Assembly: GCA_020725105.1 (NCBI GenBank)
Contig: DYFQ01000009.1
Coordinates: 1 to 64,000 of the forward strand
Direction of reading: 5' to 3'
Length of the DNA: 64,000 bases
Origin: Symbiobacterium thermophilum
GTDB taxonomy: Bacteria; Bacillota; Sulfobacillia; DYFQ01
Part shown: positions 7,785 through 52,094 of the stretch, in pieces
Layout: the number at the start of each line of letters is the position of its first letter
Position numbering within the stretch: position 1 is the stretch's first letter
Position numbers and translations under genes: made by a program
Notes under the pieces: model-generated
The model's database searches: none
What the model saw: the letters and a program-made list of their open reading frames with translations, nothing else
What the model was told of the DNA's origin: nothing

Positions 7785-8903
7785 ATGAACCACCGGCCCA
7801 CTGACACGCCCCGCAAGACGCCGCTGTGGTCGTGGCACGTGAACCACGGCGCCCGGACGGTCGAGTTCGGCGGCTGGAGCATGCCCGTGCAGTACGCGGG
7901 GGTCATCGAGGAACACCGGGCCGTCCGCTCGGCGGCCGGGCTGTTCGACGTTTCCCACATGGGTGAGTTCCGCCTCTCCGGGCCTGACGCCCTCAGGCTC
8001 GTGAACCGGGTCATCACCAACGACGCCGGCCGCCTCAAGCCCGGCAAGGTGCTGTACGCGCCCGTCTGCTGGCCGGACGGGGGCATCGTCGACGACTGCC
8101 TCGTGTACCGGCTGGGCGAGGACCGCTTCATGATGGTGGTCAACGCGGCCAACACCCGCAAGGACTTCGAGTGGGTGGCCGAGCACGCCCGCCACTTCGA
8201 TGTCGAACTGGAGGACGTGTCCCTGGAGACGGGGCTCGTGGCCTGCCAGGGACCGCTGGCCCCGGCCATCGTGCAGCGAATTACCGCCACGGACCTGTCG
8301 ACCCTGGGCACCTACTGGTGCCGGGAGGGGGTCGAGGTGGCGGGCAAGACCTGTCTGGTATCGAGAACGGGATACACCGGAGAGGATGGCTTCGAGATCT
8401 ACTGCCGCTGGGGCGACACCGAGGCCATCTGGACGGCGCTGCTCGACGCCGGCGCCGGCGACGGCCTGGTGCCGGCCGGCCTGGGGGCCCGGGACACCCT
8501 GCGCCTCGAAGCCCGGCTGCTGCTTTACGGCAACGACATCGACGACCGGACCACGCCCCTCGAGGCGGGGCTGGAGTGGACGGTCAAGTTCGACAAGCCG
8601 GACTTCATCGGCAAGGCGGCCCTCCAGCGGCAGCAGGCGGAGGGAGTCCGGCGGCGGTTGGCGGGGTTTGTCATGGCCGACCGGGGCATCCCCCGGCACG
8701 GCTACCCCATCGCCCGCGACGGGGTGGAGGTGGGGACGGTCACGTCGGGGACGTACTCCCCGACGCTGGAGCGGAACATCGGCCTGGGCTACGTGCCGCC
8801 GGACCTGGCCGTGCCCGACCGCGAGTTTGACGTGCTGATCCGCGGCCGGCCGGCGAGGGCGCGGACGGTCAAGACTCCCTTTTACCGGCCGTCCAGGGGC
8901 TAG
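7785..8903 (+). CDS. gcvT: Aminomethyltransferase, T-protein of the glycine cleavage system
   Basis: This 372-residue protein has family-typical length. The T-protein takes the aminomethyl group from lipoylated H-protein and transfers its one-carbon unit to tetrahydrofolate, releasing ammonia. Visible hallmarks include the N-terminal LWSWHVNHGARTVEFGGWSMPVQY, SHMGEF, the TGYTGEDGFEIYC motif near residue 205, and GLGARDTLRLEARLLLYG. The ATG follows AAGGAGGG by eight bases. The gene stands alone, 13 kb from gcvH-gcvPA-gcvPB, where a broken gcvT copy remains, so this copy appears to be the working one. Confidence 0.95.
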   Translation: MNHRPTDTPRKTPLWSWHVNHGARTVEFGGWSMPVQYAGVIEEHRAVRSAAGLFDVSHMGEFRLSGPDALRLVNRVITNDAGRLKPGKVLYAPVCWPDGGIVDDCLVYRLGEDRFMMVVNAANTRKDFEWVAEHARHFDVELEDVSLETGLVACQGPLAPAIVQRITATDLSTLGTYWCREGVEVAGKTCLVSRTGYTGEDGFEIYCRWGDTEAIWTALLDAGAGDGLVPAGLGARDTLRLEARLLLYGNDIDDRTTPLEAGLEWTVKFDKPDFIGKAALQRQQAEGVRRRLAGFVMADRGIPRHGYPIARDGVEVGTVTSGTYSPTLERNIGLGYVPPDLAVPDREFDVLIRGRPARARTVKTPFYRPSRG

Positions 8904-8946: not shown

Positions 8947-9420
8947 TCACGGCGGGCAGGGCCCGTCTCCCTCGAGGACCTCTATCCGCGCGGCGGCACC
9001 GGTGACGGCCACCCGAACGCGCCGGCCGCCCTCGCTCGCCAGCCACACGCAGCCCGCGGCACTGGCGACGCCGCCGTAACCAAAAGAGACCACCGGCTGC
9101 CCGCCGAAGTCGGCCGCCACGAGCCTGACCCCGGACCGCACCGCCGCCGGCCCCTCCACGGCCATAGCCTCCCGGTACACTCCGTAGGCCGAGGCCGCAA
9201 CGTCGAACCTCACCTCCCAGCGGGCTCCGTCGGCCAGCGACCGCTCCTGGACCCACCGGAGGGTCGTTTTCAGCTCCGAGGCAGCCGCATTGAGGGCCGC
9301 GCGGTCCAGAGTCGCCCGGTAGACAGGGATAATCAGGCCGGCCAGGACCGCCACGAGAGCCAGGACGAGGACCAGTTCGGCCAGGGTCGACCCGCGGGGG
9401 GAAGGCAGGCCACCGTCCAC
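8947..9420 (-). CDS. GspH/FimT-like minor pseudopilin
   Basis: This 157-residue protein has a prepilin signal ending in RG before STLAELVLVLALVAVLAGLI. That is a class III signal with serine in place of the usual phenylalanine after the cleavage glycine, and the Glu+5 is kept. The C-terminal domain resembles GspH-type pseudopilins. It is the last gene of the minus-strand pilus operon and converges on gcvT. Minor pilins of this kind prime pilus assembly. Confidence 0.75.
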   Translation of the reverse strand: MDGGLPSPRGSTLAELVLVLALVAVLAGLIIPVYRATLDRAALNAAASELKTTLRWVQERSLADGARWEVRFDVAASAYGVYREAMAVEGPAAVRSGVRLVAADFGGQPVVSFGYGGVASAAGCVWLASEGGRRVRVAVTGAAARIEVLEGDGPCPP

Positions 9421-9424
9421 GGCC

Positions 9425-9970
9425 CTACCGGCCGGCCCCGGCCAGGGTTACCACCGAGACGACGTAGCTGCCGGCATAGCCGCCGCCAGGCGTCCGCGAA
9501 ACCTCGAAGGCGTCCACGGTGACCAGCCGGCCGGAGCCCTCCAGGAACTCAAGAAACGCGACCTGGCCGGCGTAGGACCCTTGCACCGTCAGCGCCAGGG
9601 GGTGACGCCGGTAGGCCCCGCCGTCAACCGGTTCCATGAGGCGTATCGCCTCGATGGACACGCCCGCTCTGCGACCGGCGGCCTCCGCCGCCTCCAGAAA
9701 GGCGGGCAGGTCCGCCGGAGCGGCCAGTCGGGCTTCGGCCGCGGCGAGCCGCTGTCTGAGCCTTTCCACGGCCGCTTCCCTGGCCGGAACTTCAGCTGCC
9801 AGCGCCTGGGCCCGCGCCAGGGCCTGACGAGCCAGGTCGATCTCCTCCGCGAGGGCGGCCTGCCGTTTCACCAGGGGCTCATGGACGTACACGTAGCCGC
9901 CGGCCCCCAGGGCCAGGATCAGCGCCACGACGATCAGGACCCGCTCGCGCCGGGTCAGCCGCCGCCACAC
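9425..9970 (-). CDS. pilO: Type IV pilus alignment protein PilO
   Basis: This 181-residue protein has one N-terminal membrane helix (VLIVVALILALGAGGYVYV), a coiled coil rich in Ala, Glu and Arg (about residues 40-85), and a ferredoxin-like C-terminal domain. This is the plan of PilO, which with PilM and PilN forms the alignment complex joining the cytoplasmic motor to the pilus. The gene starts three bases after pilN ends. The order pilM-pilN-pilO is the normal one. Confidence 0.85.
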   Translation of the reverse strand: MWRRLTRRERVLIVVALILALGAGGYVYVHEPLVKRQAALAEEIDLARQALARAQALAAEVPAREAAVERLRQRLAAAEARLAAPADLPAFLEAAEAAGRRAGVSIEAIRLMEPVDGGAYRRHPLALTVQGSYAGQVAFLEFLEGSGRLVTVDAFEVSRTPGGGYAGSYVVSVVTLAGAGR

Positions 9971-9972
9971 GG

Positions 9973-10494
9973 CTAGCCGCCTCCTGCCTTGACCGCAAAC
10001 GTCAGCCCGAACCCGCCAGGGGTCACCTCCACCGCCAGCAGGGTGGGACTACCGAAGGCCGGGGCGGCATCGAGGGCCCGGAGGTACTGGGCCCCCTGGG
10101 CCAGCGACCTCACAAGCACGCGGACTTCGAGCTGGCCGGCAGCCACCTCCCGGACCGATTCCAGAGTCACGCCGGGACCGGCCAGCGCCTGGAACTCCCT
10201 GAGCACGGGGCTGACCGGCCGGGCGCTGATGGCTTCGACGGCTGCCACCCGCTGGGCGAGGGCCTGCTCCTCGGCGGCAAGGCGCGCCTGGCGCTCCACC
10301 TGCTCGCGTAGCGCCGCCCGGTGCTGCTCTAGCGCGTCGAGTTCCAGCTGGGCCGCGGTCACCGCCGCGCTCAGGCGACCGTAGTACCAGCCGGCGATCA
10401 CGGCCAGGGCCATCGCCGCCAGTGCCACCAGGATCCCGGTCCACGGAATCCGGCGGCCGACGCGGACCGGGGCCAGGAGGTCGACCCGCATCAT
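9973..10494 (-). CDS. pilN: Type IV pilus assembly protein PilN
   Basis: This 173-residue protein has a short cytoplasmic tail beginning MMRVDLLAPVRVGR, whose early N-x-L-like stretch contacts PilM in relatives. One membrane helix (WTGILVALAAMALAVIAGWYY), a coiled coil (about 50-95) and a small periplasmic domain follow. The first ATG overlaps the pilM stop (AATGATG), implying translational coupling. A second ATG one codon later is equally usable. Confidence 0.85.
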   Translation of the reverse strand: MMRVDLLAPVRVGRRIPWTGILVALAAMALAVIAGWYYGRLSAAVTAAQLELDALEQHRAALREQVERQARLAAEEQALAQRVAAVEAISARPVSPVLREFQALAGPGVTLESVREVAAGQLEVRVLVRSLAQGAQYLRALDAAPAFGSPTLLAVEVTPGGFGLTFAVKAGGG

Positions 10495-12131
10495 TGAGGA
10501 GGCGCCTCCCGCAAGGCCAGCCCCAGGGCCAGCATGAACTCGGGACCCATGGGCGGGCGGCTCGAGGCCAGGTCGGGGTGAAGCGGTACCCGGCGCGTCG
10601 GGCGGCCCACCACCACCTCGGTGCTCTCCTGGCCGACACGCCGTGCCAGTTCCCTGGTGATGATCTCGGTGGCCAGCTCCGGAAGACCCAGGAGGCCCGC
10701 CACGCCGCCCGTCAACACCACCCGGGCGACGCCCGGCACTGCGTGGCGGTCCAGGCAGAACTCGACGGTCTGAGCCACCAGCAAAAAGAGGTTTTCCAGC
10801 TCCGCCCGCAACACCCACCCGGCCTCGCCCCGGAGCCCGTCGCGCCTCAGCCCCGCTTCGGCGGCGGCCGGATCGGTGCCCAGCGCCCCCGCGACCCGCT
10901 GTACCAGGGTCAGGCCTCCCGGCTGCAGGACCCTCTGGAGCACGGGAAACCCATGGGCGAACACGGCTACTTCCGTGGCACCGGCGCCAAGATCCACCGT
11001 CACCAGTGCCCCGGCTTCGTCGTTTTCCGGGGCGTAGCCGTTGGCGGCCACGGCCCGGTACAGGGCGACGGTCCGCACCTCCAGGGCGCTGAGGTCGAGC
11101 CGGGCCTGGCGCAACTGCCGCCGGGTGTCGAGGACGGCCTCCCGCGGCGCGGCTACCAGTAGCACCCGCGCGGCGCCTCTGGCTGGACCGTCACCGAGCA
11201 CGGCGAGGTCGTGAACGGTCCCCTCCTGCGGCAGGGGAACGTACCGGTCCCACTCCACCCGGACGGCCTCGCGCACTTCCGGCTCGCTCATGGGCGGGAA
11301 CTCGACGATCCGCACCAGCACCCCGTGGCCGCCAAGGGCCGCCACCACCCGTCTTTGAGCTACACCGAAGGCACCGAGAAAACTCCTCAGGCCGGCCGCG
11401 TACCGGACATCTGCTCCGTTGCCGGGCCCCCTGGCCACGGCCCGGGCCTCGCCGGCGTTCACGATGGTCGGGCCCTCCGCCCCGGGCAGGACCTGCACGA
11501 ACCGCCAGCGCCAGGTGCCCAGGTCCAGACCCAGCAGCGTCCGCCGCTGCGAGACAGCGACCCGTCGCGGAAGAGGCTGGTCCCAGGGGACCGGCGCCGG
11601 CTCCCGCCCGGCTGGGGCGGGGGCCGGTCCCGGTGCCGGCACGGCCGTCGCGACCGGAGGCGGCGGCTCGGCCGGCCGCTCCGCCGGTTCCTCGTGGCCC
11701 CCGCCCACTTCGGCGGCGGGGGGCTCGGGCCCCGTAGCCGGCGGCGGGCCGGGCGGAGCTTCCTCAACCGGCGCCGCGGACCTCCAAGCCAGCCGGCGGA
11801 CGCCGGCGAGCAACACGACGGCGACCACCAGGCCGCCGGCCGTCACGTGAAGGTCGGGAAAGGCCGTCAAGTGACCGCGGGTCTGCAACCAGCGGGTCCC
11901 CGCCACCAGCAGCCCCGCCAGACCCAGGGCCGCCAGGCCCTCGGTCAGGTCCTGCCCGGTGGCCAGCCGGCGGCCGGCGTGCTCGGCCCGCTTTCTGTCG
12001 CTCCGCCTGGGACGCGAAGGGTAGGGAAAGGGTTCCACGTCGGCCCCCCCGCTTCGACCCCCGATTCGGGCACCCGCCGGACCGGGCTCCTCAACCCGTA
12101 GTTGGCGGCTCAGGGCGGGACCTCCTGCCAC
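10491..12131 (-). CDS. pilM: PilM-like actin-fold pilus protein with an N-terminal membrane extension
   Basis: The C-terminal about 350 residues are PilM: RTLLGLDLGTWRWRFVQV (phosphate-1 motif), VVAALGGHGVLVRIVEFPPM, ALVTVDLGAGATEVAVF and VVLTGGVAGLLGLPELA. PilM is a cytoplasmic ATP-binding ring protein that binds PilN. Ahead of it are about 190 residues not found in ordinary PilM: two hydrophobic segments (about residues 68-82 and 98-112) and a long Pro/Ala/Glu-rich linker. The start is uncertain. A GTG at 12131 overlaps the previous gene by 22 bases, and another in-frame GTG lies at 12038. Both keep the membrane segments. Confidence 0.8.
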   Translation of the reverse strand: MAGGPALSRQLRVEEPGPAGARIGGRSGGADVEPFPYPSRPRRSDRKRAEHAGRRLATGQDLTEGLAALGLAGLLVAGTRWLQTRGHLTAFPDLHVTAGGLVVAVVLLAGVRRLAWRSAAPVEEAPPGPPPATGPEPPAAEVGGGHEEPAERPAEPPPPVATAVPAPGPAPAPAGREPAPVPWDQPLPRRVAVSQRRTLLGLDLGTWRWRFVQVLPGAEGPTIVNAGEARAVARGPGNGADVRYAAGLRSFLGAFGVAQRRVVAALGGHGVLVRIVEFPPMSEPEVREAVRVEWDRYVPLPQEGTVHDLAVLGDGPARGAARVLLVAAPREAVLDTRRQLRQARLDLSALEVRTVALYRAVAANGYAPENDEAGALVTVDLGAGATEVAVFAHGFPVLQRVLQPGGLTLVQRVAGALGTDPAAAEAGLRRDGLRGEAGWVLRAELENLFLLVAQTVEFCLDRHAVPGVARVVLTGGVAGLLGLPELATEIITRELARRVGQESTEVVVGRPTRRVPLHPDLASSRPPMGPEFMLALGLALREAPPQ

Positions 12132-13249
12132 TCCAGCAGGACCGCCCGCAGCCCGGGCAGTCCCGGCGGCAGCGCCGCGGGGGGCGGCACGGCGTGGGTC
12201 GCCTCCAGCCGGGTCGGCCAGTAAGCGGCGGCGGCAACCAGGGCGCCGTCCAGGCTGACTCGGGCGCCCAAGTGGGCTTCGCCGTAAACGTAAAGGAGGG
12301 CTTCCACCCGCCGGCCCGGCGCCACCACCAGGTCCTGCAGGCCGATCAGGGCAAGCCCGTCGGCGGGGTCACCCCGGAGCAGGTCGCGGGAAACCACGAC
12401 CTGTCCCGTGACCACAATGGTGCCGCGGCCGCCGTAGGTCCCCCGGATCGTCAGGTCCCCGCGTACGACCAGTACCTCGTCGGCCAGCACCGGATCCACC
12501 AGTTCCCGGTCGCCGTCCAGGACCGTGGTGGCCAGGGCCTCATACCACCCCAGGGGCGGCAGTGGCCGGGTCACCGGGGCCACCCCTTCGAAGACGCCCC
12601 CGGACGCCTCGACGCGGGCCCGCTTGCCCACGTTGACCAGACGCCCGGTCAGGTAGACGGACCCGTCTACCTCCACCCGGGCCCGGTTGGTCAGGTCGCC
12701 GTTCACAAACACGTCCCCCGTCAGGCTGGCAGCATCACCTGCCACGTAGAGAGAGACGTCGCTGAAGAGCACGTACCGGACGGCTTCCGGCGGCTCCAGG
12801 CCGACCAGTCCCTGCACCGCCCGGGCCGCCCGGGCGACCGTGCCGGCGGAACGTACCAGCACGGTGTCGGGTGCCGGCTGGCTGAAGGTGACGCGGTAGG
12901 CTCCCAGGTGGGTGCCGAAGTCGAACGGGTCGTTTATGCGCGGCTGCCCGCCGGGGCCCCGGTAGTCGTTGGTGATGGTTTCCCGCCAGCCGGGTCTCGT
13001 CTCCAGCAGGGAAATGGCCCGCTCCAGCCCGGCCTCGGCCACGTGCAAGGCCTGGACCGCGTCCCGGTGGTAGGCGGCCATCTGCAGCTCCCGGGTGCCG
13101 CTCCAGACAACGCTCACCGCCACCAGGGACAGGAGGGCAAGACCCAGCACCACCCCGAGCAGGGCCACGCCCGCCTCGCCTCGCACCCTTCCGGCGAGCC
13201 CGGTTGGTCCCGGTGACAGCCCCGGCCAACCCGTGCCCACGGCAGTCAC
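12110..13249 (-). CDS. PilX-like pilus assembly protein
   Basis: This 379-residue protein has an N-terminal GEAGVALLGVVLGLALLSLVAVSV pilin-like helix and AYHRDAVQALHVAEAGLERA, the typical PilX sequence in which added residues lead into the helical stalk. It is followed by a large repeat-rich extracellular domain (VFVNGDLT, SVYLTGRLV, VVRGDLTIRG) that looks like a right-handed beta-helix. The GTG start overlaps the pilW stop as GTGA. PilX-type proteins are low-abundance pilus components. The beta-helical part is an inference from the repeat pattern. Confidence 0.75.
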   Translation of the reverse strand: MTAVGTGWPGLSPGPTGLAGRVRGEAGVALLGVVLGLALLSLVAVSVVWSGTRELQMAAYHRDAVQALHVAEAGLERAISLLETRPGWRETITNDYRGPGGQPRINDPFDFGTHLGAYRVTFSQPAPDTVLVRSAGTVARAARAVQGLVGLEPPEAVRYVLFSDVSLYVAGDAASLTGDVFVNGDLTNRARVEVDGSVYLTGRLVNVGKRARVEASGGVFEGVAPVTRPLPPLGWYEALATTVLDGDRELVDPVLADEVLVVRGDLTIRGTYGGRGTIVVTGQVVVSRDLLRGDPADGLALIGLQDLVVAPGRRVEALLYVYGEAHLGARVSLDGALVAAAAYWPTRLEATHAVPPPAALPPGLPGLRAVLLEWQEVPP

Positions 13250-13788
13250 CGGCCGTTCCGCAGCACGGCCCCGGCCTTGAGGACCACCGGCCGGCCGTCG
13301 TCGGTTTCGGCCCTGACGGTGACCACCACCAGCGGAGCGCCGGCCAGCAGGTGCTCGAACCGCACCGAGGTGAGTCCCCCGGCCACCGGCTGGGCCTCTG
13401 CCTCGGCCGGCGGACACCCCCCGCCGTCGCACCGGCGCCAGAGGGCAAGCCTGCCGCCGGCCTCCGGCTCGGTCCAGAACCTGACGGTAGCGCCGGGTCG
13501 CCACAGGAGCTCCAGGCTGTCGCCGGCCGCGCCGGCGGGCGGCAGGAGCACCGCGCGGGCCTCCCTGGCGGCGGCCGTGACCCGGACCACGGCCAGCCTC
13601 ACGCTCTGCTGCCGTTCCAGCAGCCCCTCGGCGGTCCGCCAGGCCCGCAGCCCGAACCCCTGCAGCGACAGGACGGCCGCCGCCACCAGCCCCGCGATTC
13701 CCAGGGCGACCACCACTTCCATCAGGGTGAACCCCGCCTGCGCCAGGGTGAACCCCGCCTGCGGCCGCGCCGGGGGGGGCCGGCTCAC
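13246..13788 (-). CDS. PilW-like minor pilin with a duplicated processing site
   Basis: This 180-residue protein begins with a GTG that overlaps the preceding minor pilin stop (GTGA). Its N-terminus reads QAGFTLAQAGFTLMEVVVALGIAGLV, so the prepilin peptidase site GFTL occurs twice. This comes from a perfect 20-of-21-base tandem repeat at 13723-13764. Only the second copy has Glu at +5 and leads into the helix. The rest is a PilW/PilJ-like globular domain with a CDGGGC loop. The gene sits in the minor-pilin run of the operon. Confidence 0.8.
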   Translation of the reverse strand: MSRPPPARPQAGFTLAQAGFTLMEVVVALGIAGLVAAAVLSLQGFGLRAWRTAEGLLERQQSVRLAVVRVTAAAREARAVLLPPAGAAGDSLELLWRPGATVRFWTEPEAGGRLALWRRCDGGGCPPAEAEAQPVAGGLTSVRFEHLLAGAPLVVVTVRAETDDGRPVVLKAGAVLRNGR

Positions 13789-14210
13789 GGCCCGCCCCAC
13801 CCCTCGGCGAGGCCCTGGCCAGCGTGGATCAGGGTGATCAGGCGCGTGGTCCGCCCGATCCCTCTCAGGTGCCACCGGACCTCCACGGTGACCCGCCCGA
13901 GGTTGTAGGCCACGGAGGGGTCGACGCAGGTGCGGGCTTCGAGCCCGGCGGCCTCGGGCACCTCGGGGTCGGCGACCGGCTCCCACGGCCCGCAGCCGGA
14001 GCCCTCGCCCAGCGCCCGAAGACCGGCCGCCCTGATCTGTTCCAGGCGGCCCTCCGCCGTCAGGACGGCCGCCGTGTGGTAGCGGGCGTCGGTGACGGCC
14101 CAGAGGCCGGCCACCATCAGCCCCAGGATCCCGGCGGTCATCAGCCCCAGGATCCCCAGGGCCACCACCACTTCCAGAAGGGTCAGCCCCTTGCTGTCCA
14201 GCCGCCGCAT
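13785..14210 (-). CDS. PilV-like minor pilin
   Basis: This 141-residue protein starts MRRLDSKGLTLLEVVVALGI, a class III prepilin signal with KG before LTLLE. The helix then contains a tandem repeat, ILGLMTAG ILGLMVAG, from a 24-base duplication starting at 14115 (17 bases of the second copy identical). The ATG follows GAAGGTGG by about eight bases. Minor pilins of this type take part in pilus initiation and adhesion. Two cysteines (about 80 and 105) could form a disulfide outside the cell. Confidence 0.75.
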   Translation of the reverse strand: MRRLDSKGLTLLEVVVALGILGLMTAGILGLMVAGLWAVTDARYHTAAVLTAEGRLEQIRAAGLRALGEGSGCGPWEPVADPEVPEAAGLEARTCVDPSVAYNLGRVTVEVRWHLRGIGRTTRLITLIHAGQGLAEGWGGP

Positions 14211-14348
14211 GTTCGTGGCGCCACCTTCTCGGGCCCCGCGGGCAAGGCAGCACGCGAAGACACGTTCCCTGCCGCCGCGGGTGCATTCCCTGTCCCGGGC
14301 CCGGGAACCTGCCCCCGGACCGTCGCGATCGGGCAGACCGAAGGGCGC

Positions 14349-14376
14349 GAGCCGGCCCGCTGGCGCGGGCCGGCTC
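14349..14376 (-). terminator. GC hairpin between pilin and minor-pilin genes (possible attenuator)
   Basis: A perfect 12-bp stem (GAGCCGGCCCGC with its complement) and a four-base loop lie in the 227-bp gap. No U-run follows on either strand, so it is not a classical intrinsic terminator. It could reduce transcription into, or protect the 3-prime end of, the pilin message so that pilins exceed minor pilins. A 14-base palindrome (TCCCGGGCCCGGGA, 14293-14306) lies in the same gap. Confidence 0.4.
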
Positions 14377-14437
14377 ACGCCGGCTTCTCTCGCCGGTCGC
14401 GTCACGCGTTTGAGGTGGATTTAAGGGGTGAAGTCGA

Positions 14438-14923
14438 TTACGGTCCGGAGCCTGCGTTGAAGTCGATTCCGTCGGGGGTGATGCTAATGTGCCGCTGCGC
14501 GGCGGTCGTGTCCCGGATGACCAGAGTGAAAGTGGTGGGCCGAGCAGCAGTCGCAGCGGAACCGTCGTCGTAGCTCCTAAAGGTGAATACAGCGTCCGCG
14601 TCAGTCGTCGGCAGGCTGATGTACGGTGAGAGGACCGTGCGCAGTGTAGCGTAATCGTAAACCCGTTCGGTGACAGTGACGTTGTCGGCGACGTTGTTGT
14701 CCGCCGCGTAGTAACCCTTGTCCTTGAAGAAGCGCTCCAGCGCGACCCGCAGCTCCCGGGCGGCCAGGTTCGCGCTGCCCTTGCGGGCGTCCTCCATGGC
14801 CTGGCCCACCCGGGGGATCACCAGCGCGGCCAGGATGGCGATGACGGCGATGACCACCACCAGCTCCAGCAGGGTGAAGCCGCGCTCTCCCTTGAGCCCG
14901 GCCAGCCGCTTGCGGAATCCCAT
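14438..14923 (-). CDS. Type IV major-type pilin 1
   Basis: This 161-residue prepilin has GERGFTLLELVVVIAVIAILAALVIPRV with cleavage after RG and Glu+5. The same VIPRVG-x-A-EDARKGSA-LAARELR pattern occurs in the paralogue next to it, so the two arose by duplication. The globular domain ends HISITPDGIDFNAG. An AAGGAGGTG site precedes the ATG by about ten bases, and an in-frame GTG four codons earlier is possible. It should be the structural subunit of the type IV pilus or one of a pair. Confidence 0.88.
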   Translation of the reverse strand: MGFRKRLAGLKGERGFTLLELVVVIAVIAILAALVIPRVGQAMEDARKGSANLAARELRVALERFFKDKGYYAADNNVADNVTVTERVYDYATLRTVLSPYISLPTTDADAVFTFRSYDDGSAATAARPTTFTLVIRDTTAAQRHISITPDGIDFNAGSGP

Positions 14924-15012
14924 GCTCCCTTGCACCTCCTTTCAGCGCCTGCCGCGCCCGGGTCGGGGTTCGGGCCAGGCGCCCAGAGTTCGGCAGGTTC
15001 GCCCGCCTTTTG

Positions 15013-15546
15013 CTATTCGGACGTGATCTCCCGCTCGGTGATGGTGATCAGCTTTGCCGCCGCCGAGCGGTCCCGGATATTCAAGGTGAACCGCTGGGGC
15101 CGGTTAGGGCTGGCGTCCGTGCCCGAGCCCTCCGTTGCATAGCTCTCAAACGCGAACGGGGCGTCGTCCTGCGTCGCCGGCATGCTGACGTAGGCGGCCA
15201 GCACCGTCCGGAGGGTGGCGTAACCGGAGACCGTGTCCGCTCCGGGCGTGTCGCGGTCGTCCTGGTCAAGGGGATAGTAACCCCTGTCGATGTAAAAGCG
15301 TTCCAGGGCCGCCTTCAGTTCCCGTGCGGCAAGGCGGGCAGAGCCCCTGCGGGCGTCTTCAAGGGCGGTACCGACGCGCGGCAGCACGAGGGTGGCCATG
15401 ATGCCGATGATGGCCATGACGACCACCAGCTCGATCAGGGTGAAACCTCGGTCGTCCGTGAGCCGCCTCCGGCGCGTCCCTGCAGCCCGGTGGACTCCCA
15501 CCCGCGGTCTGCCGCGGGGGCCGAGCCACCGCATCCCTACTTTCAT
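15013..15546 (-). CDS. Type IV major-type pilin 2
   Basis: This 177-residue prepilin has an unusually long basic leader (about 33 residues) before DRGFTLIELVVVMAIIGIMATLV. It shares YATLRTVL-x-Y-S-P and the A-RELK-ALERF-D-GYY block with pilin 1. The start has AGGAGG four to five bases upstream. It is the first gene behind a strong promoter region on the minus strand, so the pilins can be made separately from pilBTC. Which of the two pilins is the major subunit cannot be told from sequence. Confidence 0.88.
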   Translation of the reverse strand: MKVGMRWLGPRGRPRVGVHRAAGTRRRRLTDDRGFTLIELVVVMAIIGIMATLVLPRVGTALEDARRGSARLAARELKAALERFYIDRGYYPLDQDDRDTPGADTVSGYATLRTVLAAYVSMPATQDDAPFAFESYATEGSGTDASPNRPQRFTLNIRDRSAAAKLITITEREITSE

Positions 15547-15621
15547 CGCCTCCTCTTCAGCACTGCCCTGGCTGCGCGGGGCCGGTCAGGGTCACGGTCT
15601 CAAGGGGGGTGAGACTTTGAG

Positions 15622-15660
15622 ATTCGACAACATGCTACACGATCCTGCTCACAATGGCAA
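15622..15660 (-). promoter_or_regulatory. Overlapping sigma-H and sigma-A-like promoters for the pilin genes
   Basis: On the minus strand AGGATCG (15646-15640), 11 bases and GTCGAAT (15628-15622) match the sigma-H consensus closely. Overlapping it, TTGCCA and TAGCAT with a 17-base spacer (15660-15632) form a fair vegetative promoter. The stretch is an A+T-rich island between pilC and the pilins. Two overlapping promoters would allow both growth-phase and transition-phase expression. Confidence 0.6.
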
Positions 15661-15687
15661 GCTTTTCCGCAATGGTCGAATCTTCGG

Positions 15688-16905
15688 TCACCCGAACAGC
15701 GTTATCAGGTCGTACAGCGGCAGGAACATGGACACCACCACTACCGCGACAATGACTCCCAGCAAGAGCACGAGCACCGGCTCCAGGAGCGCCGTCAGCT
15801 GGGTGGCCATGGCGTCCACCTCGCGGTCGTAGTAGTCCGCCAGGCGGGCCAGCATGGCGTCGAGGGTCCCGCTCTCCTCGCCCACGGCCACCATGTCCGC
15901 CAGCATGGGCGGGAAGTGGGGGTGGCGGCGGAAGGGCTCGGCCATGGGCCGCCCGGCGGTGAGGGCGGTCCGGGCCGCCCTCACCCCGTCGGCCAGCAGC
16001 CGCAGGTGAAGGGTGCGCTCGGCGACGGCCAGCGCCTCGGCCAGGGGCACCCCGCTCCGGTAGAGGGCGCCGAGGGTCCGCGCCAGCCGGGACACTTCAC
16101 GCAGCTGCAGCAGGCGGCCGCCCAGCGGCAGGGCCAGCACCAGCCGTTCCAGCCGCCGGCGCCCGGCTGTGCTTGCCGCCCAGGCCCGCGCCCCCACGGC
16201 TGCCGCCGCGAGTCCGGCGGCGAGGACCCAGCCGTAGGCCCGCAACCACTGGCTGGTGGCCAGCAGCGCCCGGGTGGGGGCGGGCAGGGGCGCGTCGAAC
16301 TGCTGGAAGAACTGCACGAAGATGGGAAACACGTAGGTCACCAGCAGGGTCAGGACCCCCAGGGCGGCCGCCAGCACCACCGCGGGGTAGGCCAGGGCGC
16401 TCCGGACCTTCCGGGCCACGGCGTACTCCTTGTCGTAGTGGTCGGCCAGGCGCAGCAGGACCTCGTCCAGGATTCCGCCCGCCTCTCCCGCGGCCACCAT
16501 GTTCACCACCAGGGGCGGCACCAGCGCGGCGCGCTCCAGGGCGCCGGTCAGACTTTCGCCCCCCTCAAGGGATGCCAGGACGCGCTCCAGGCCCGAGCGG
16601 ACGCCGGGGCGGGCCCCGGGGCTCAACGTCTGCAGCGCGCCGCGGAGCGAGACGCCGGCCGCCACCATGGTGCCGAGCTGCCGGCAGAAAAAAGCCAGGT
16701 CCCGGTGGCTCATCCTCGCGCCCGGCCTGCGCGACCGGAGCCAGGCCCGGACCATGTTCCCCAGGTCCCGGTCGGGCTCCACGCCGGTCACCGTCAGGCC
16801 CCGGCGTCTGAGCCTCGCCAGCGCCTCGCCGGCATCGGCGGCCTCGATGCTCCCGCCGTGGAGGCGACCCGCGGCGTCCCGGGCGCGATAGGCGTAGCGC
16901 GGCAC
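15688..16905 (-). CDS. pilC: Type IV pilus inner-membrane platform protein PilC
   Basis: This 405-residue protein starts MPRYAYRARDAAGRLHGG and has two T2SSF repeats (about 70-190 and 270-395). It contains FCRQLGTMVAAGVSL and MVAVGEESGTLDAMLARLADYYDREV, plus three long hydrophobic segments. PilC is the membrane platform on which the PilB and PilT motors act. It lies downstream of pilT and upstream of the pilin promoter. Length and motifs are complete. Confidence 0.92.
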   Translation of the reverse strand: MPRYAYRARDAAGRLHGGSIEAADAGEALARLRRRGLTVTGVEPDRDLGNMVRAWLRSRRPGARMSHRDLAFFCRQLGTMVAAGVSLRGALQTLSPGARPGVRSGLERVLASLEGGESLTGALERAALVPPLVVNMVAAGEAGGILDEVLLRLADHYDKEYAVARKVRSALAYPAVVLAAALGVLTLLVTYVFPIFVQFFQQFDAPLPAPTRALLATSQWLRAYGWVLAAGLAAAAVGARAWAASTAGRRRLERLVLALPLGGRLLQLREVSRLARTLGALYRSGVPLAEALAVAERTLHLRLLADGVRAARTALTAGRPMAEPFRRHPHFPPMLADMVAVGEESGTLDAMLARLADYYDREVDAMATQLTALLEPVLVLLLGVIVAVVVVSMFLPLYDLITLFG

Positions 16906-16911
16906 CCGTGG

Positions 16912-17940
16912 CTACCTCCCGGGGCCCGGTGGCGGCCCGGTGCCGGTGATGATTCCCTGCCGGGCCAGTTCCTGACGGGACACCTCAAAACTCCTCATCC
17001 CGAACCGGGCGCCCGTTTCGATGGCCGCGGGGAGCTGGTGGGTCTTTCCTTCCCGGATCAGGTTCCGGACGGCGGGGGTGGCCACGAGCACCTCCAGGAG
17101 GGCCACCCGCCCGGGCCGGTCGACGCGGGGCGCCAGGGTCTGGGCAACGACACCCACCAGGCTGCCGGCCAGTTGCTGGCGGATCTGCTGCTGCTGGTGG
17201 GGCGGGAAGGCGTCGATGATGCGGTCGACCGTCTGGGGGGCGCTGGCCGTGTGCAGCGACGCCAGGACCAGGTGGCCGGTCTCGGCGGCGGTGATGGCGG
17301 TGGCAATGGTCTCCAGGTCCCGCATTTCCCCGACCATGATGACGTCGGGGTCCTCCCGCAGGGCGGCGCGGAGCCCGCGGGCAAAGGACTCGGTGTCGCT
17401 TTCCACTTCCCGCTGGTTGACGATGCTCTGCCGGTGGCGGTGCAAGAACTCGATGGGGTCCTCCAGGGTGATGATGTGGTAACGGTACTCGGTGTTGAGG
17501 AGGTCCACGATGGCCGCCAGGGTCGTGGACTTGCCACTGCCGGTCGGACCCGTGACCAGGATCAGGCCCTGCGGCGCCCGGGCCAGGTCGGCCACGACGC
17601 GCGGCAGGCCGAGTTCGTCCAGGGTAAGGATCCGGGTCGGGATGACCCGGATGGCCAGGCCCACCGAACCCCGTTGCCGGTAGGCGTTGACCCTGAACCG
17701 CGCCAGCCCGGGGACGCTACAGGAGAAGTCGGCGTCGCCCGTGGCTTCGAACCGGGGCCGCAACTGGGCGGGCAAGATTTCGTCCAGCAGCGCCCGGGTG
17801 TCCTCGGGCCCCAGCACCGGCTCCGGCAGGTCTTCGAGCTTGCCGTGGACCCGGACCACCGGCGGACGCTCCACCGTCAGGTGCAGGTCGGAAGCGGAAA
17901 CCTCCAGAGTCCGGCGCAGGAGGTCCTGGATCGACCGCAT
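16912..17940 (-). CDS. pilT: Pilus retraction ATPase PilT
   Basis: This 342-residue hexameric ATPase powers pilus retraction. It shows SASDLHLTVERPPVVRVHG at the N-terminus, Walker A GPTGSGKSTTL (about residue 130), the Asp box ITLEDPIEFLH, Walker B VIMVGEMRDLETI and the His box TGHLVLASLHT. The C-terminus has the QGIITG ending seen in PilT proteins. The ATG lies one base after the pilB stop, so the two motors are translated from one message. Presence of PilT implies twitching or DNA-uptake pili rather than a simple secretion system. Confidence 0.93.
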   Translation of the reverse strand: MRSIQDLLRRTLEVSASDLHLTVERPPVVRVHGKLEDLPEPVLGPEDTRALLDEILPAQLRPRFEATGDADFSCSVPGLARFRVNAYRQRGSVGLAIRVIPTRILTLDELGLPRVVADLARAPQGLILVTGPTGSGKSTTLAAIVDLLNTEYRYHIITLEDPIEFLHRHRQSIVNQREVESDTESFARGLRAALREDPDVIMVGEMRDLETIATAITAAETGHLVLASLHTASAPQTVDRIIDAFPPHQQQQIRQQLAGSLVGVVAQTLAPRVDRPGRVALLEVLVATPAVRNLIREGKTHQLPAAIETGARFGMRSFEVSRQELARQGIITGTGPPPGPGR

Positions 17941-17941
17941 G

Positions 17942-19651
17942 TCACGCCTCCCGGAAAGCGGCCCGGCGTACTTCCTCCAGGCTGGTGATGCCGGCCAGCG
18001 CCTTGTCCACGCCGTCCTTGAGCAACGGCGCCATGCCTTCGGCGATGGCCGCCTCGCGCAGTGCGTCGGCCGAAACCCGCTGGTCAATGAGGGACCTGAG
18101 CCTGGCGTTCACCGCCAGCACCTCGAAGAGGCCGGTGCGGCCGTGGTACCCCTGGCCGCCGCAACCGGGACAACCAATGGCCCGGTAGACGGTGACCCGG
18201 CCCTTCCCCAGCCCCAGCGCGAACCGTTCAGGCGCGTCGGGGTCAAGGTCCTCGGGCGACCGGCAGCGAGGGCACAGCACCCGCACCAGCCGCTGGCCCA
18301 CCACCCCCACCAGGGCGCTGGCGATGAGGAAAGGCTCCACGCCCATGTCCAGAAGCCTGGCCACGGCCCCGGCGGCGTCGTTGGTGTGGATGGTGGAGAG
18401 CACCAGGTGGCCGGTGAGGGCGGCCCCCACGGCGGTGTCGGCCGTGTCGGGGTCTCTGATCTCGCCGACCATGATGATGTTGGGGTCCTGGCGGACGATG
18501 GCCCGCAGGCCCCGGGCAAAGGTGTAGCCGGCCCGCTCGTTCACCTGGGTATGGTTTACCCCGGCCACCTCGTACTCCACCGGGTCCTCGATGGTCACGA
18601 CGTTCTTGGCGGGATCGTTGAGGGCGGTAAGGGTGGCCAAGAGCGTGGTGGTCTTGCCGCTGCCCGTCGGGCCGCTGGCCAGGAGCAGGCCGAAGGGCGC
18701 CCTGATCAGCCGGCGGTAAAGCTCGAGGGTGGCGGGGGCCATCCCCAGCCCGTCCAGGGCGGTGATGACCCGTCCCTTGTCCAGTAGCCGCATGGCCACC
18801 TTCTCCCCGTAGATGGTTGGCAGGGTGGCCACCCGTAGGTCGATATCGATCCCGTCCCGGCGCAAACGGAAGTGGCCGTCCTGGGGCGCCCGGCGCTCGG
18901 AGATGTCCATCTCGGCCATGAGCTTGAGCCGCGACACCAGGGCCGGGTGGGTCTCGGGGGGCACGGTCATCACTTCCCGCAGGACGCCGTCGATGCGGTA
19001 GCGAACCCGAGCGGAGTCCTCCAGCGGCTCCAGGTGGACGTCGGAGGCCCGCTCCTGGATGGCCCGTTCGATGATGGTGTTGGCCAGGCGGATCACGGGC
19101 GCGCTGTCGGCGTCGGCGGCGGGCTGGCCGCCGGGTTCGGGTCGCGCCGGCCGGGCAGCCATGGCGGGCGCTCCGGCCGCGGGCCGGCCGGGACCTTCGG
19201 CCTGGGGCCCTGCCTGAGGAGGTCCCGGCACGCGGTAAGCCAGGGCCAGGGCCCGTTCGATGCCCTGCTCGGTCACGGCCGCTGCCCGGACCGGGCGACC
19301 GGTGAGGGCGCTGATGTCGTCGAGGGCCAGGACGTCGAGGGGGTCGGCCATGGCGACGACCAGGCTGTCGCCTTCGAGCGCGATGGGAACAGCGCGGTAA
19401 CGCCGGGCCGCTTCTTCGGACAGCAGGCGTGCCGCCGCCCGGTTCACGGTCAGTTGCTCGGCGGGCAGGAAAGGGATGCCCCGCTGTTCGGCCAGAAAGC
19501 GGGCGACGTCCACGTCACTGACGAAGCCGAGCGCCACCAGGATCTCGCCCAGGCGCTTGCCCGACTGCTCCTGCACCTTGAGGGCCTGCTGGAGTTGCTG
19601 GGGCGAGATTACCCCCGCCTCCCGGACCATGTCCCCCAGGCGGCGCTTCAT
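17942..19651 (-). CDS. pilB: Pilus extension ATPase PilB
   Basis: This 569-residue ATPase drives pilus polymerisation. An N-terminal MshEN-like domain (KRRLGDMVREAGVISPQQL) is followed by the nucleotide-binding core with Walker A GPTGSGKTTTLL, ITIEDPVEYEVAGV, Walker B IIMVGEIRDPDTAD and TGHLVLSTIHTND. A zinc-binding region near the C-terminus contains LCPRCR and GCPGCGGQGYHGRTG. MshEN domains can bind c-di-GMP, which fits the c-di-GMP enzyme encoded nearby. The ATG at 19651 is my choice. A GTG at 19669 is also in frame, and neither has a well-placed ribosome site. Confidence 0.93.
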   Translation of the reverse strand: MKRRLGDMVREAGVISPQQLQQALKVQEQSGKRLGEILVALGFVSDVDVARFLAEQRGIPFLPAEQLTVNRAAARLLSEEAARRYRAVPIALEGDSLVVAMADPLDVLALDDISALTGRPVRAAAVTEQGIERALALAYRVPGPPQAGPQAEGPGRPAAGAPAMAARPARPEPGGQPAADADSAPVIRLANTIIERAIQERASDVHLEPLEDSARVRYRIDGVLREVMTVPPETHPALVSRLKLMAEMDISERRAPQDGHFRLRRDGIDIDLRVATLPTIYGEKVAMRLLDKGRVITALDGLGMAPATLELYRRLIRAPFGLLLASGPTGSGKTTTLLATLTALNDPAKNVVTIEDPVEYEVAGVNHTQVNERAGYTFARGLRAIVRQDPNIIMVGEIRDPDTADTAVGAALTGHLVLSTIHTNDAAGAVARLLDMGVEPFLIASALVGVVGQRLVRVLCPRCRSPEDLDPDAPERFALGLGKGRVTVYRAIGCPGCGGQGYHGRTGLFEVLAVNARLRSLIDQRVSADALREAAIAEGMAPLLKDGVDKALAGITSLEEVRRAAFREA

Positions 19652-19972
19652 GATATCCGGTGAAACCACCCTTGTGGGCCGTGCCCGGCAACATCTTTCG
19701 AGGCCAGGCCACCTTCATCTTCCGCGAGGGTGCCTGGACGTGTCAAGCTCCGAGAGGAAGTCGGCGGCCGGGCGCGCGGTCCGGCCCGTCTTTCGCCCCG
19801 GGTCGGGTATGAGGAACATCACAGCCCGCCCGGCGAAGGCCGGCTAACCTGGAGCTGCACGCAGCCTTGTGCCTGTCGACAGGCCGCCGACCTGGAGCAG
19901 GGAGCCGGAGCCCGTGGTGGCTGTTCCGCCGCCAGGTGGAGGCATGAACGTCGCGGGGAGGGGACCTGAGAG
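19652..19972. other. Divergent intergenic region between pilB and a lipoprotein gene
   Basis: No gene is apparent. It holds a perfect 14-base palindrome GCCTGTCGACAGGC (19871-19884), two direct copies of ACCTGGAGC on either side of it, and a small hairpin around 19830-19845. This is a plausible regulator-binding site for the pilus operon promoter. I checked both strands for a c-di-GMP-I riboswitch and could not assemble its core. Confidence 0.4.
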
Positions 19973-20437: not shown

Positions 20438-20572
20438 ATGGTCCGCCGCGGCCGCAGCAAACGTCGCGGTGAGGCGGGTGCCATGTATCCCCGGTTCCGT
20501 CGACAGCGAAACCCGGCTCCAGGCCGTCCTCGGCGACCCCGGCGGCCGAGGGCCTTCGGGTGCCGGCCGTGA
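20438..20572 (+). CDS. Possible small Arg/Pro-rich protein upstream of pilD
   Basis: A 44-residue frame starts MVRRGRSKRRGEAGAMYPRF. A GGGAGGGG site lies about nine bases ahead, and its TGA overlaps a GTG start of the prepilin peptidase (GTGA). The composition is mostly Arg, Pro and Gly, as random G+C-rich sequence would give, so it may only be a leader or nothing. Confidence 0.25.
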   Translation: MVRRGRSKRRGEAGAMYPRFRRQRNPAPGRPRRPRRPRAFGCRP

Positions 20573-21345
20573 GCGCCGCCTGGGCTTTCCTCGACCCCCG
20601 GGTCCAGGTGGGCCTGGCCTTTCTCCTGGGGGCGGTGGTGGGCAGCTTTCTGAACGTGGTCATCCACCGGCTGCCCCGGCGCCAGTCCCTGCTCTGGCCC
20701 GGCTCCTACTGCCCCGCCTGCCGGGCGGCCCTGCGCCCCTGGGACCTGGTGCCCGTCCTCAGTTACCTGGCGCTGCGGGGCCGCTGCCGCTACTGCGGGT
20801 CCCCCGTCGGCTGGCGGTACCCGGCCGTGGAGGTCCTCACCGGGCTGGCCTACGCCCTGGTCTACCAGCGGCTGGGCTGGGGCTGGGAGTTGCCGGGGGC
20901 TTTCGTGCTGGTGGGAGTGGTGACCGCCGCGGCCTTCATTGACCTGGAGCACGGTATCATCCCCAACCGGCTGGTCCTGGCGGGGGCGGGGGCAGGCGTG
21001 CTTCTCTTCTGGTGGCCGACGCCCCTGAGACTGGCGGACGGCCTGTTGGGGGCCGCGACCACCGGGGGGCTGTTCCTGGCCGTCGCTCTCGCCTACCCCG
21101 GCGGCATGGGCGGCGGCGACGTGAAGCTGGCGGCGCTGGTCGGTTTCTACCTGGGCTGGCGGCTGGGGCTGCTGGCCATGGTTCTGGCGGTCGTCCTGGG
21201 GGGCGCGGTGGGCCTGGCGCTGGTGGCCTGGCGCGTCAAGGGGCGGAAGGACCCTATCCCCTTTGGCCCCTTTCTGGCCGCCGGGGCGGTGCTCGCGCTG
21301 GCCTGGGGGCCTGACCTGATTCGCTGGCTGTGGGGAGTGGGTTAG
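20569..21345 (+). CDS. pilD: Prepilin leader peptidase/N-methyltransferase PilD
   Basis: This 258-residue integral membrane aspartic protease cleaves and N-methylates prepilins, here those of the type IV operon and perhaps the Tad system. It has the N-terminal GAVVGSFLNVVIHRLPR, two CxxC zinc pairs (CPAC and CRYC), and the catalytic aspartates in FIDLEHGIIPN and GGGDVKL. About seven hydrophobic segments follow. I start at GTG 20569. A GTG three codons earlier is also in frame, and no strong ribosome site separates them. Confidence 0.92.
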   Translation: MSAAWAFLDPRVQVGLAFLLGAVVGSFLNVVIHRLPRRQSLLWPGSYCPACRAALRPWDLVPVLSYLALRGRCRYCGSPVGWRYPAVEVLTGLAYALVYQRLGWGWELPGAFVLVGVVTAAAFIDLEHGIIPNRLVLAGAGAGVLLFWWPTPLRLADGLLGAATTGGLFLAVALAYPGGMGGGDVKLAALVGFYLGWRLGLLAMVLAVVLGGAVGLALVAWRVKGRKDPIPFGPFLAAGAVLALAWGPDLIRWLWGVG

Positions 21346-21355: not shown

Positions 21356-21634
21356 TCAGAAGCCCCTGGGTTCGGCCACGGGGAGGTTCAGAACCCGGTC
21401 GTCACCGCTGTCCAGTCCCAGCGCGGCGGCGGCCTCGGCCCGCATGGCAGGGCTTGACAGGCGCCCTTCCAGGTCCGGACGGAGCCGCAGCCACAAGGCG
21501 CGTATCTCGTCGGTCCGTTCCTCCAGGCCCAGGCGGTCGCAGACGCTGGCCACCGCGTGAAGGTGCCTCACCAGGGCCGAGAGGATCCGTGCCGAACCGG
21601 GTGCCTGTTCCAGGCCCGGGAGCGTCCGGTGCAT
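21356..21634 (-). CDS. Hypothetical small helical protein
   Basis: This 92-residue protein, predicted helical (HRTLPGLEQAPGSARILSAL and LGLEERTDEIRALWLRLRP), converges on pilD. The ATG has an excellent GGGGAGGGG site seven bases upstream, which is the main reason to believe it. The frame continues upstream to 21676, but those codons lack a ribosome site. I do not recognise a family. Confidence 0.5.
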   Translation of the reverse strand: MHRTLPGLEQAPGSARILSALVRHLHAVASVCDRLGLEERTDEIRALWLRLRPDLEGRLSSPAMRAEAAAALGLDSGDDRVLNLPVAEPRGF

Positions 21635-21752
21635 CAGGTTCCCCTCCCCGAACACCTTGGCCGGCAGGGCGCACACCTGCCGCTGTTCCTCATATCGGTC
21701 ATTTGGCTCGGGAAATTCACCGTCGCCGTGCGGGGCCGGTGGGATCCGGCAA

Positions 21753-21904
21753 GGGCAGGAACGGCCTTTCGGACCGTCGAAGCCCGGCCCGCGGACTGTC
21801 GACGCTGGGCACCTACTGCCGGGAGGGGGTGGACGTGGCGGGTAAGACGTGCCCGGTGTCGAGAAGGGGATACACTGGAGAGGATGGTCTCCCTTTTACC
21901 GGCG
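21753..21904 (+). pseudogene. Collage-like gcvT remnant with its promoter, upstream of gcvH
   Basis: Three separate parts of the intact gcvT locus are joined here. Bases 21753-21785 match the gcvT promoter element (33 bases, three mismatches). Bases 21792-21888 match gcvT 8291-8389, including the DNA for GYTGEDG, with a 3-base and a 2-base gap. Bases 21889-21904 match the gcvT 3-prime end (CTCCCTTTTACCGG). The order is that of gcvT with the intervening parts deleted. I infer an ancestral gcvT-gcvH-gcvPA-gcvPB operon whose gcvT collapsed. The sigma-H-like promoter AGGAACG-N12-GTCGAAG may still serve gcvH. Confidence 0.8.
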
Positions 21905-22000
21905 CCCCGCGGGATAGGGCGGGCGCAACGGCGGCAGCGGAGCACCACGGCGGCCCGCGGCCGCGCGGGAACCGGTCAGGGGGCAGGGAGGGAGCGACGG

Positions 22001-22381
22001 GTGTACCCCGAGGAGCTCAGATATTCGAAGGAACACGAGTGGATCAGGGTGGAGGACGGCGAGGGGGTAGTCGGCATCACCTGGTTCGCCCAGGACCAGC
22101 TCGGCGACGTGGTGTACGTCGAACTGCCCGAAGTGGGGCGGAAGGTGGCCAAGGACGAGGCCTTCGGCGTGGTGGAGTCGGTGAAGTCCGTCTCCGACGT
22201 CTACGCCCCGGTGGGCGGTGAGATCGTCGCCGTCAACGAAAAGCTCGTCGACCACCCGGAACTGGTGAACCAGGACCCGTACGGGGAGGGCTGGTTCATC
22301 CGCCTGCGCATCGGCGATCCGGCCGAGCTTCGTGACCTCCTGGACGCGGCGGGTTACCAGGAACTGATCGGCCAGGCCTAG
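22001..22381 (+). CDS. gcvH: Glycine cleavage system H-protein
   Basis: This 126-residue shuttle protein carries the aminomethyl group on a lipoyl-lysine. The lipoylation motif VVESVKSVSDVYAPVGGEIV is intact, with the lysine at about residue 64. The N-terminus YPEELRYSKEHEWIRVEDG and GITWFAQDQLGDVVYVELP are canonical. The GTG start follows AGGGAGGGAG. gcvPA follows after 12 bases. The gcvT remnant lies directly upstream. Confidence 0.95.
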   Translation: MYPEELRYSKEHEWIRVEDGEGVVGITWFAQDQLGDVVYVELPEVGRKVAKDEAFGVVESVKSVSDVYAPVGGEIVAVNEKLVDHPELVNQDPYGEGWFIRLRIGDPAELRDLLDAAGYQELIGQA

Positions 22382-22393: not shown

Positions 22394-23728
22394 ATGCGCT
22401 TCAACCCGCACACCCCGGAGGACCGCCGGAAGATGCTGGACGCCATCGGCGTCAAGGGCATCGACGAGCTGTTCGCCGACATTCCCGAGGCGGTCCGCTT
22501 CCGGGGCACCATGGACCTCCCGCCGGCCATGTCCGAGTGGGAACTCACCAGGCACGTGGGCGACCTGGCAGCCAGGAACCGCGTGGGGCTGGCGTGCTTC
22601 ACCGGGGGCGGCGCCTACGACCACTACGTTCCCGCGGCCGTGGACCAGATCCTGTGGCGGGGCGAGTTCTACACCGCCTACACCCCCTATCAGCCCGAGA
22701 TCGCCCAGGGCACGCTCCAGGCGATCTACGAGTACCAGAGCATGATCTGCGAGCTGACCGGGATGGACGTGGCCAACGCCTCCAACTACGACGGCGCGTC
22801 GTCGCTCGGCGAGGCGGCCAACCTGGCGCTGTCGTCCACGGGACGAAAGAAGGTGCTGGTGTCGCGGGCGGTCCACCCCTACTACCGCCAGACGCTGGCC
22901 ACCTACACCAGGCGGCCCGGGGTGGAACTGGTGGAGCTTCCGCTGGACGATGGCGTCACCAGCCTTGACGCGGCCATGGAGCGCCTGGACGAGGACGTGG
23001 CCTGCCTCATCATCCAGCAGCCCAACTTCTTCGGCTGCCTGGAGCCCGGTCCGGAACTGGCCGAGGCCGTGCACCGGGTCGGGGGGCTGCTGGCGGTGTC
23101 GGCTGACCCCCTGTCGCTCGGGGTGCTGGAGGCGCCGGGCAACTACGGGGCGGACATCTGCTCCGGCGACGGACAGCCGCTGGGCCTGGGGCTCAACTTC
23201 GGTGGACCTTACGTCGGCTTCTTCGCCGCCAGGGAAGCCCTCATCCGGCGGATGCCCGGCCGGATCGCAGGCGTCACCGTCGACAACCGGGGCCGGCGGG
23301 GGTTCGTGCTGACCCTGCAGACGCGGGAGCAGCACATCCGCCGCGAGCGGGCCACCTCCAACATCTGCACCAACCAGGCCCTGTGCGCCCTGGCCACCAC
23401 CGTCTACATGTCCATCATGGGCCGGGAGGGGCTGCGGGACGTGGCCCTGCAGTGCCTGTACAAGGCGCATTACGCCCGTGACCGGCTGGCCGGGTTGCCC
23501 GGCTGGTCAGTCTCCTTCACCCGGCCGTTCTTCCGGGAGTTCGCCGTGAAGAGCCCGCACCCGGTCGAGCGGGTGCAGGAGCACCTGCTGGAGGCGGGGA
23601 TGATGGGCGGCATCGACCTGGGAACCTGGTACCCCGAGTTGAAGGGGCACCTCCTGTTCGCGGTCACCGAGAAGCGGACCCGGGCCGAGATCGACGCCCT
23701 GGCCGAGCGATTGGGGGCGATGGCGTGA
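22394..23728 (+). CDS. gcvPA: Glycine dehydrogenase (decarboxylating) subunit 1
   Basis: This 444-residue alpha subunit of the split P-protein decarboxylates glycine together with subunit 2. It begins [20 protein letters not shown], and contains [39 protein letters not shown] and [21 protein letters not shown], all family hallmarks. The PLP lysine is in the partner subunit. It starts 12 bases after gcvH and overlaps gcvPB by four bases. Confidence 0.95.
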
Positions 23729-25215
23729 ACCCGACGAATCCGCGCCACACCGAACCCCTGATCTTCGAGCTCTCGGCCCCCGGGAGGAGCACCTACTCCC
23801 TGCCGCCGGTGGAGGTGCCCGAGCGGCCCCTGGCGGAACTGATTCCCGAGGATCTCTTGCGGAAGGAACCGGCCGCCCTGCCGGAGGTCCCGGAGGTCGA
23901 CGTGATCCGGCACTTCACCCGGCTGTCCCAGTTGAACCACGGAGTGGACACCGGCTTCTACCCCCTGGGCTCCTGCACCATGAAGTACAACCCCAAGGTC
24001 AACGAGGCGCTGGCCCGCTTGCCGGGCTTCACGGGGCTGCACCCGATGAAGCCCCCGGAACTGACCCAGGGGGCGCTGGAACTCATGTGGCGGCTCGAGC
24101 GCTACCTCTGCGAGATCGGCGGGCTGGCCCGGGTGACGCTGCAGCCGGCGGCCGGCGCCCACGGGGAGTTCACCGGGCTGCAGATCATCCGCGCCTACCA
24201 CCTGGACCGGGGCGAGGACCGGCGCAAGGTCATCGTGCCCGACTCGGCCCACGGCACCAACCCGGCCACGGCGGCCATGTGCGGCTGCTTCGTGGTGTCG
24301 GTGCCGTCGGACGACCGCGGCGGGGTGGACATCGCCGCCCTGGAGAAGCTGCTGGACGACAACGTGGCCGCCTTCATGCTGACCAACCCCAACACCCTGG
24401 GGCTCTTTGACGAGAACATCGACAAGATCGCCCGGCTGGTCCATGACGCCGGCGGGCTGCTCTACTACGACGGGGCCAACGCCAACGCCATCATGGGCTG
24501 GGCCCGGCCCGCCGACACCGGCTTCGACGTGGTCCACTTCAACCTGCACAAGACCTTCTCCACGCCCCACGGGGGCGGGGGGCCCGGCTCCGGGCCGGTG
24601 GGCGTCACCGAGACCCTGGTTCCCTACCTGCCCGTGCCCATGGTGGAGCGGGACGAAGCCACCGGCCGGTACTACCTGGACTGGAACCGGCCCAAGAGCA
24701 TCGGCAAGCTCATGGCCTTTTACGGCAACTTCGGCGTGCTGGTGCGGGCCTACGCCTACATCCGGGCCCACGGGCCGGACGGGCTGAAGCAGGTGTCCGA
24801 GGACGCGGTGCTCAGCGCCAACTACCTGATGCGCAAGCTCCAGCCCTATTACGACCTGCCGTACGACCGGGCCTGCATGCACGAGTTCGTGCTGTCGGCC
24901 CGGCGGCAGAAGCAGAAGACGGGCGTGAGAGCGTTGGACATCGCCAAGGCGCTCCTGGACTACGGGGTGCACCCGCCCACCATCTACTTCCCCCTCATCG
25001 TGGAGGAGGCGCTGATGGTGGAGCCCACCGAGACGGAGACCCTGGAGACCCTGGACGCCTTCGTCGGGGCCATGGTGGAGATCGCCCGGCAGGCCGAGGG
25101 CAACCCGGACGCGTTGAAGGGCGCTCCCTACACCACCCCGGTGGGCCGGCTGGACGAGGCCCGGGCGGCCAGGCAGCCCGACGTCCGGTGGCGGCCCGGC
25201 AAGGAGGGAGCCTGA
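23725..25215 (+). CDS. gcvPB: Glycine dehydrogenase (decarboxylating) subunit 2
   Basis: This 496-residue beta subunit of the P-protein is PLP-dependent. The lysine sits in [17 protein letters not shown] (about residue 275). [29 protein letters not shown] and [14 protein letters not shown] are present. The GTG start overlaps the gcvPA stop (GTGA), so the two subunits are translated together in equal amounts. A lipoate-transfer gene follows and completes the pathway cassette. Confidence 0.95.
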
Positions 25216-47902: not shown

Positions 47903-47940
47903 GGCGGCGGACGCAACCGTCCGCGAAAAACTGACGCGAT

Positions 47941-48038
47941 CGGCCGCTGGGGGAGCCCGAACCCGGGCTGAGACCGGAGCGCCAGGCACCGGAACCCCTG
48001 GAACCTGACCTGGGTAATGCCAGCGTAGGGAAGTGGGC
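47941..48038 (+). promoter_or_regulatory. TPP (THI-box) riboswitch
   Basis: The conserved thi-box core is present: GGGCTGAGA in the pyrimidine-sensor arm (47965-47973) and GAACCTGACCTGGGTAATGC followed by CAGCGTAGGGAAG in the pyrophosphate-sensor arm (48001-48033). It controls thiD-thiM-thiE-thiW. Downstream lies a 12-bp GC hairpin (48058-48086) without a U-run, then a ribosome site AGAGGAGGG. Control may thus be by terminator-like pausing or by hiding the ribosome site. Confidence 0.95.
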
Positions 48039-52020: not shown

Positions 52021-52094
52021 AGCCACAACGTTTACGCTGCCTGTTGCCACCTACCTCCGGCTCTTCTTGTCGTCAGTCGTACGGGGTGAACCTT

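Follow-up and report, generated by a model that had tools for sequence, protein, structure and literature searches.

Collinear remains of gcvT with an apparently intact sigma-H-type promoter upstream of gcvH in Symbiobacterium thermophilum

Background

In the canonical gcvT-gcvH-gcvPA-gcvPB operon of Bacillota, gcvT directly precedes the other glycine cleavage genes. In the stretch of DNA analysed here (henceforth the window, 64,000 nucleotides of the S. thermophilum contig DYFQ01000009.1, assembly GCA_020725105.1), the gene order and the downstream neighbours correspond to this operon, and some relatives carry a sigma-H-type motif before gcvT. Unlike the canonical arrangement, the surviving gcvT is located 13 kb upstream of gcvH, beyond a 12.8-kb block that contains a type IV pilus cluster, and scraps alone stand at its place. 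This raises the question of what these scraps are, how they came to lie there, and whether they still carry the promoter of gcvH. The genes concerned are the following.

7785-8903 (+), intact gcvT, sole full copy in the genome (NCBIfam TIGR00528, 408.6 bits, cut-off 235.85; whole-genome search)
8947-19669 (-), type IV pilus cluster with pilB, pilT, pilC, pilins, pilX, pilM, pilN, and pilO (Pfam PilO, PilM_2, PilX_N; GspE/PilB family; gene set as in the clusters of relatives)
20560-21345 (+), prepilin peptidase pilD (Pfam A24_N_bact, Peptidase_A24)
21356-21676 (-), 106-aa open reading frame adjoining the remnant (ORF list; no family match in Pfam or NCBIfam)
22001-22381 (+), gcvH, first intact gene 3' of the remnant (TIGR00527, 167.6 bits)
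22394-25215 (+), gcvPA and gcvPB (NF001696 and NF003346, above cut-off)

Three collinear gcvT pieces before gcvH

Alignment of the segment upstream of gcvH with the intact gcvT locus recovered three collinear pieces on the + strand, at about 21746-21917.

21746-21785 (+), piece 1, gcvT promoter region with a sigma-H-type motif (identity to 7644-7677)
21796-21887 (+), piece 2, internal gcvT coding piece, approximately codons 171-201 (alignment and codon analysis)
21889-21917 (+), piece 3, gcvT 3' end with stop codon (exact match, then aligned stop)

The original prediction, i.e., three gcvT locus segments in their original order with the intervening sequence deleted, was thus borne out with a promoter, a coding, and a 3'-end piece, and its coordinates (21753-21904) were correct to within about 15 bases. 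In piece 1, 31 of 34 bases were identical (21752-21785 vs 7644-7677), and the hexamer CCGGCA immediately 5' of this match (21746-21751) was also present at 7635-7640; the score of the piece was 25 compared to a maximum of 12 in the shuffle test. Piece 2 was identical to the intact gene at 82 of 92 bases (21796-21887 vs 8295-8389) with one 3-base codon missing, and a BLAST search of the window returned it against intact gcvT at 85% identity (E = 1.9e-27). Piece 3 matched at 15/15 bases (21889-21903 vs 8875-8889), a score of 15 being equalled by 1 of 1000 shuffles, and was followed by an in-register TAG stop aligned with that of gcvT (FYRRPAG* vs FYRPSRG*). Each of the three pieces hence exceeds chance, and they are jointly collinear. 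A 10-base match considered as a fourth piece (21786-21795 vs 7741-7750) was discarded as chance, its score being reached by 433 of 1000 shuffles.

In the whole-genome search, the remnant and the intact gcvT were each other's only matches. The genome is a draft in 73 contigs, in which a chimeric assembly could have placed gcvT fragments before gcvH. This explanation is very improbable: the pieces are 9-15% divergent from the sole intact copy, they are shortened by internal deletions that the joining of reads would not create, and they are followed by the ancestral gene order downstream.

Ancestral position and decay of the remnant

Genomes used for comparison were relatives at class level, none nearer, and no intermediate state of the locus was seen among them. 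These were checked for an intact gcvT before gcvH, and gcvT was present directly 5' of gcvH-gcvPA in 29 of the 29 class loci; the remnant therefore occupies the ancestral gcvT position. Most class relatives with wider flanks carried lplA-aroQ-pepQ-efp, at least partly, downstream of the gcv genes, and gcvH in the S. thermophilum contig retains lplA, aroQ, pepQ, and efp as its ancestral downstream neighbours.

Over aligned bases, the remnant was closest to the local gcvT (87.5%), and the identity of either copy to any relative was at most 69%. Within the coding piece, 7 synonymous and 3 non-synonymous changes were counted (P about 0.009 against neutral change only). Changes specific to the remnant were T25R, L21P, and the loss of one codon, with the T to R change affecting a position that is T in 107/109 sequences. 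The reading frame of the remnant is disrupted by two large deletions and a frame change, and conserved residues are lost. As judged from the sequences, the synonymous excess together with the polarised changes in the remnant is characteristic of a pair in which one copy is constrained and the other decays, as would be expected of a duplicated gene that died later. The features by which a pseudogene remnant is recognised (collinear homologous pieces, a disrupted frame with lost conserved residues, and the ancestral position) were all found, and the remnant is accordingly read as a dead gcvT copy at the ancestral gcvT site. With its collinear pieces, deletions, frameshift, and lost conserved residues, it resembles other post-duplication pseudogene fragments and is, though attractive, a genome fossil of an ordinary kind; unlike the usual fragments, it retains an apparently intact promoter that faces the surviving operon.

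Structured RNA

The segment is situated in the 5' leader of gcvH, where a conserved regulatory RNA with a coincidental likeness to gcvT could also be placed. However, no Rfam family matched in the remnant segment, its predicted folding was not unusual (z = -0.97), no match to it as a conserved element 5' of gcvH was found in 60 class relatives, and its substitution pattern is of the coding type. The RNA reading was rejected based on the negative Rfam search and fold test, and is considered extremely improbable. Conservation as an RNA element before gcvH, which had been named as the finding that would speak against the original prediction, was thus encountered neither in the 60 class relatives nor in the Rfam and fold analyses.

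Sigma-H-type promoter motif

Both copies of the promoter region contain the same motif.

7647-7673 (+), sigma-H-type promoter motif GCAGGA-N15-GTCGAA 5' of intact gcvT (exact motif match)
21755-21781 (+), sigma-H-type motif GCAGGA-N15-GTCGAA in remnant piece 1 (12/12 motif bases retained)

The sigma-H consensus is RNAGGAWWW / RNNGAATWW (PMC8510167), and a spacing of 14-15 bases was taken from the SigH-dependent promoters listed for C. difficile (PMC7438776). The promoter piece contains the RNAGGA and RNNGAA elements within this range, sharing the AGGA and GAA cores and a 15-base spacing with known sigma-H (Spo0H) promoters. It differs from them in having ACG where the consensus has WWW after AGGA, and G for T after GAA, and is a putative promoter recognised from its sequence. 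A SigH gene is encoded in the genome (TIGR02859, 380 bits). Both spoIIAA and spoVS are sigma-H targets in other organisms (PMC7438776); in this genome, a motif-like site with one mismatch and likewise a G after GAA was present 5' of spoIIAA (GAAGGAAAATATTGCCTTCCGTCGAAGCC), and another 5' of spoVS (GCAGGAATTTT...AGAGAA).

In the window, the GCAGGA/GTCGAA motif was observed three times compared to 0.07 expected occurrences. Across 90 genomes, the motif with up to one mismatch was located within 700 bases 5' of gcvT in 11, including the genome of the S. thermophilum contig, and permuted motifs were found in a mean of 0.63 and a maximum of 3. Because of this recurrence, the glycine cleavage operon has probably long had a sigma-H-type promoter, at least in a part of the class. 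Class-wide, GCAGGA-N13-15-GTCGAA yielded 851 matches vs 182 for the backward control in the first 100 genomes (approximately 4.7-fold). The motif is an indication that glycine cleavage genes in a Bacillota class have a sigma-H-type promoter, a testable addition which, if true, would place glycine cleavage under transition-phase/sporulation control in this class. In the literature searched, glycine cleavage was not found as a sigma-H target, and nothing relevant was found on remnants of gcvT that keep their promoter.

Some further matches were noted. The third site in the window (GCAGGA-N14-GTCGAA then T, 15623-15648, - strand) is located 76 bases 5' of a prepilin gene (15013-15546). Genes 3' of class-wide motif sites included, in the loci read by eye, apparent spoIIAA and apparent cell-wall peptidases. 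A match to the promoter piece in genome L004 was a partial resemblance without GTCGAA and was set aside.

Retention of the promoter piece

It is plausible, as had been proposed, that the promoter piece persisted because it drives gcvH, with the motif suggesting a promoter of the sigma-H type. The remnant could also be a purely neutral fossil whose promoter piece has no function, gcvH being driven from another promoter. All three substitutions in the promoter piece lie outside the motif, an outcome that chance alone gives about one quarter of the time; sequence comparison indicated that retention of the piece was not statistically beyond that of the rest of the remnant, and the remnant is seen in a single genome. 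Against a neutral fossil, the 12 motif bases are all intact, the motif is correctly oriented directly 5' of the operon, and a search for other promoter-like sites, i.e., sigma-70-like promoters, as well as terminators near gcvH and gcvT gave none. A functionless promoter piece is therefore considered rather unlikely.

Proposed history of the locus

We consider it likely that gcvT was duplicated, the operon was split, the operonic gcvT decayed, and a sigma-H-type promoter now reads into gcvH. The ancestor would have had a gcvT-gcvH-gcvPA-gcvPB operon under a sigma-H-type promoter, of which the promoter and gcvT were duplicated as one unit. The 12.8-kb block with the type IV pilus cluster would then have come between the two gcvT copies, an order of duplication and insertion that we infer from the present arrangement. 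The distal copy would have remained functional, and the copy adjoining gcvH would have been shortened by two or more deletions (about 0.6 and 0.5 kb) and would have lost one codon and several conserved residues.

The same fossil could have arisen if the repeats stem from single-crossover integration of a circle that carried the pilus cluster together with a homologous gcvT, originating from elsewhere in the chromosome or from a related strain and leaving direct gcvT repeats around the insert. Direct repeats do border the 12.8-kb block, much of the divergence arose under coding constraint, and pilus clusters with the same gene set are placed elsewhere in relatives, in two of them about 22-25 kb upstream of gcvT (contig coordinates). 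However, no integrase or plasmid genes were seen in the block, its GC content is like that of its surroundings (0.72 vs 0.70), and change in the surviving gcvT accounts for the synonymous excess just as well. Integration of a circle is thus regarded as unlikely.

Following the duplication history, gcvH-gcvPA-gcvPB are now probably transcribed from the remnant promoter, because the promoter stayed. Transcription by SigH RNA polymerase would begin immediately 3' of 21781, and the transcript would cross approximately 220 bases of gcvT scraps before reaching gcvH-gcvPA-gcvPB. This is a long leader, which could contain another promoter. The other promoter copy would serve the intact gcvT, so that one kind of control would act at both halves of the split operon. 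Duplication of the promoter with gcvT may have kept the halves co-regulated, with selection holding the promoter while the gene copy rotted, a suggestion that we make tentatively. The locus represents a clear fossil of operon splitting, with the old promoter surviving 5' of the remaining genes.

Elsewhere in the window, a full-length OLE RNA (Ornate Large Extremophilic RNA; 51379-52066, + strand, 392.7 bits) and a TPP riboswitch (47939-48048, + strand, 77 bits) were identified.
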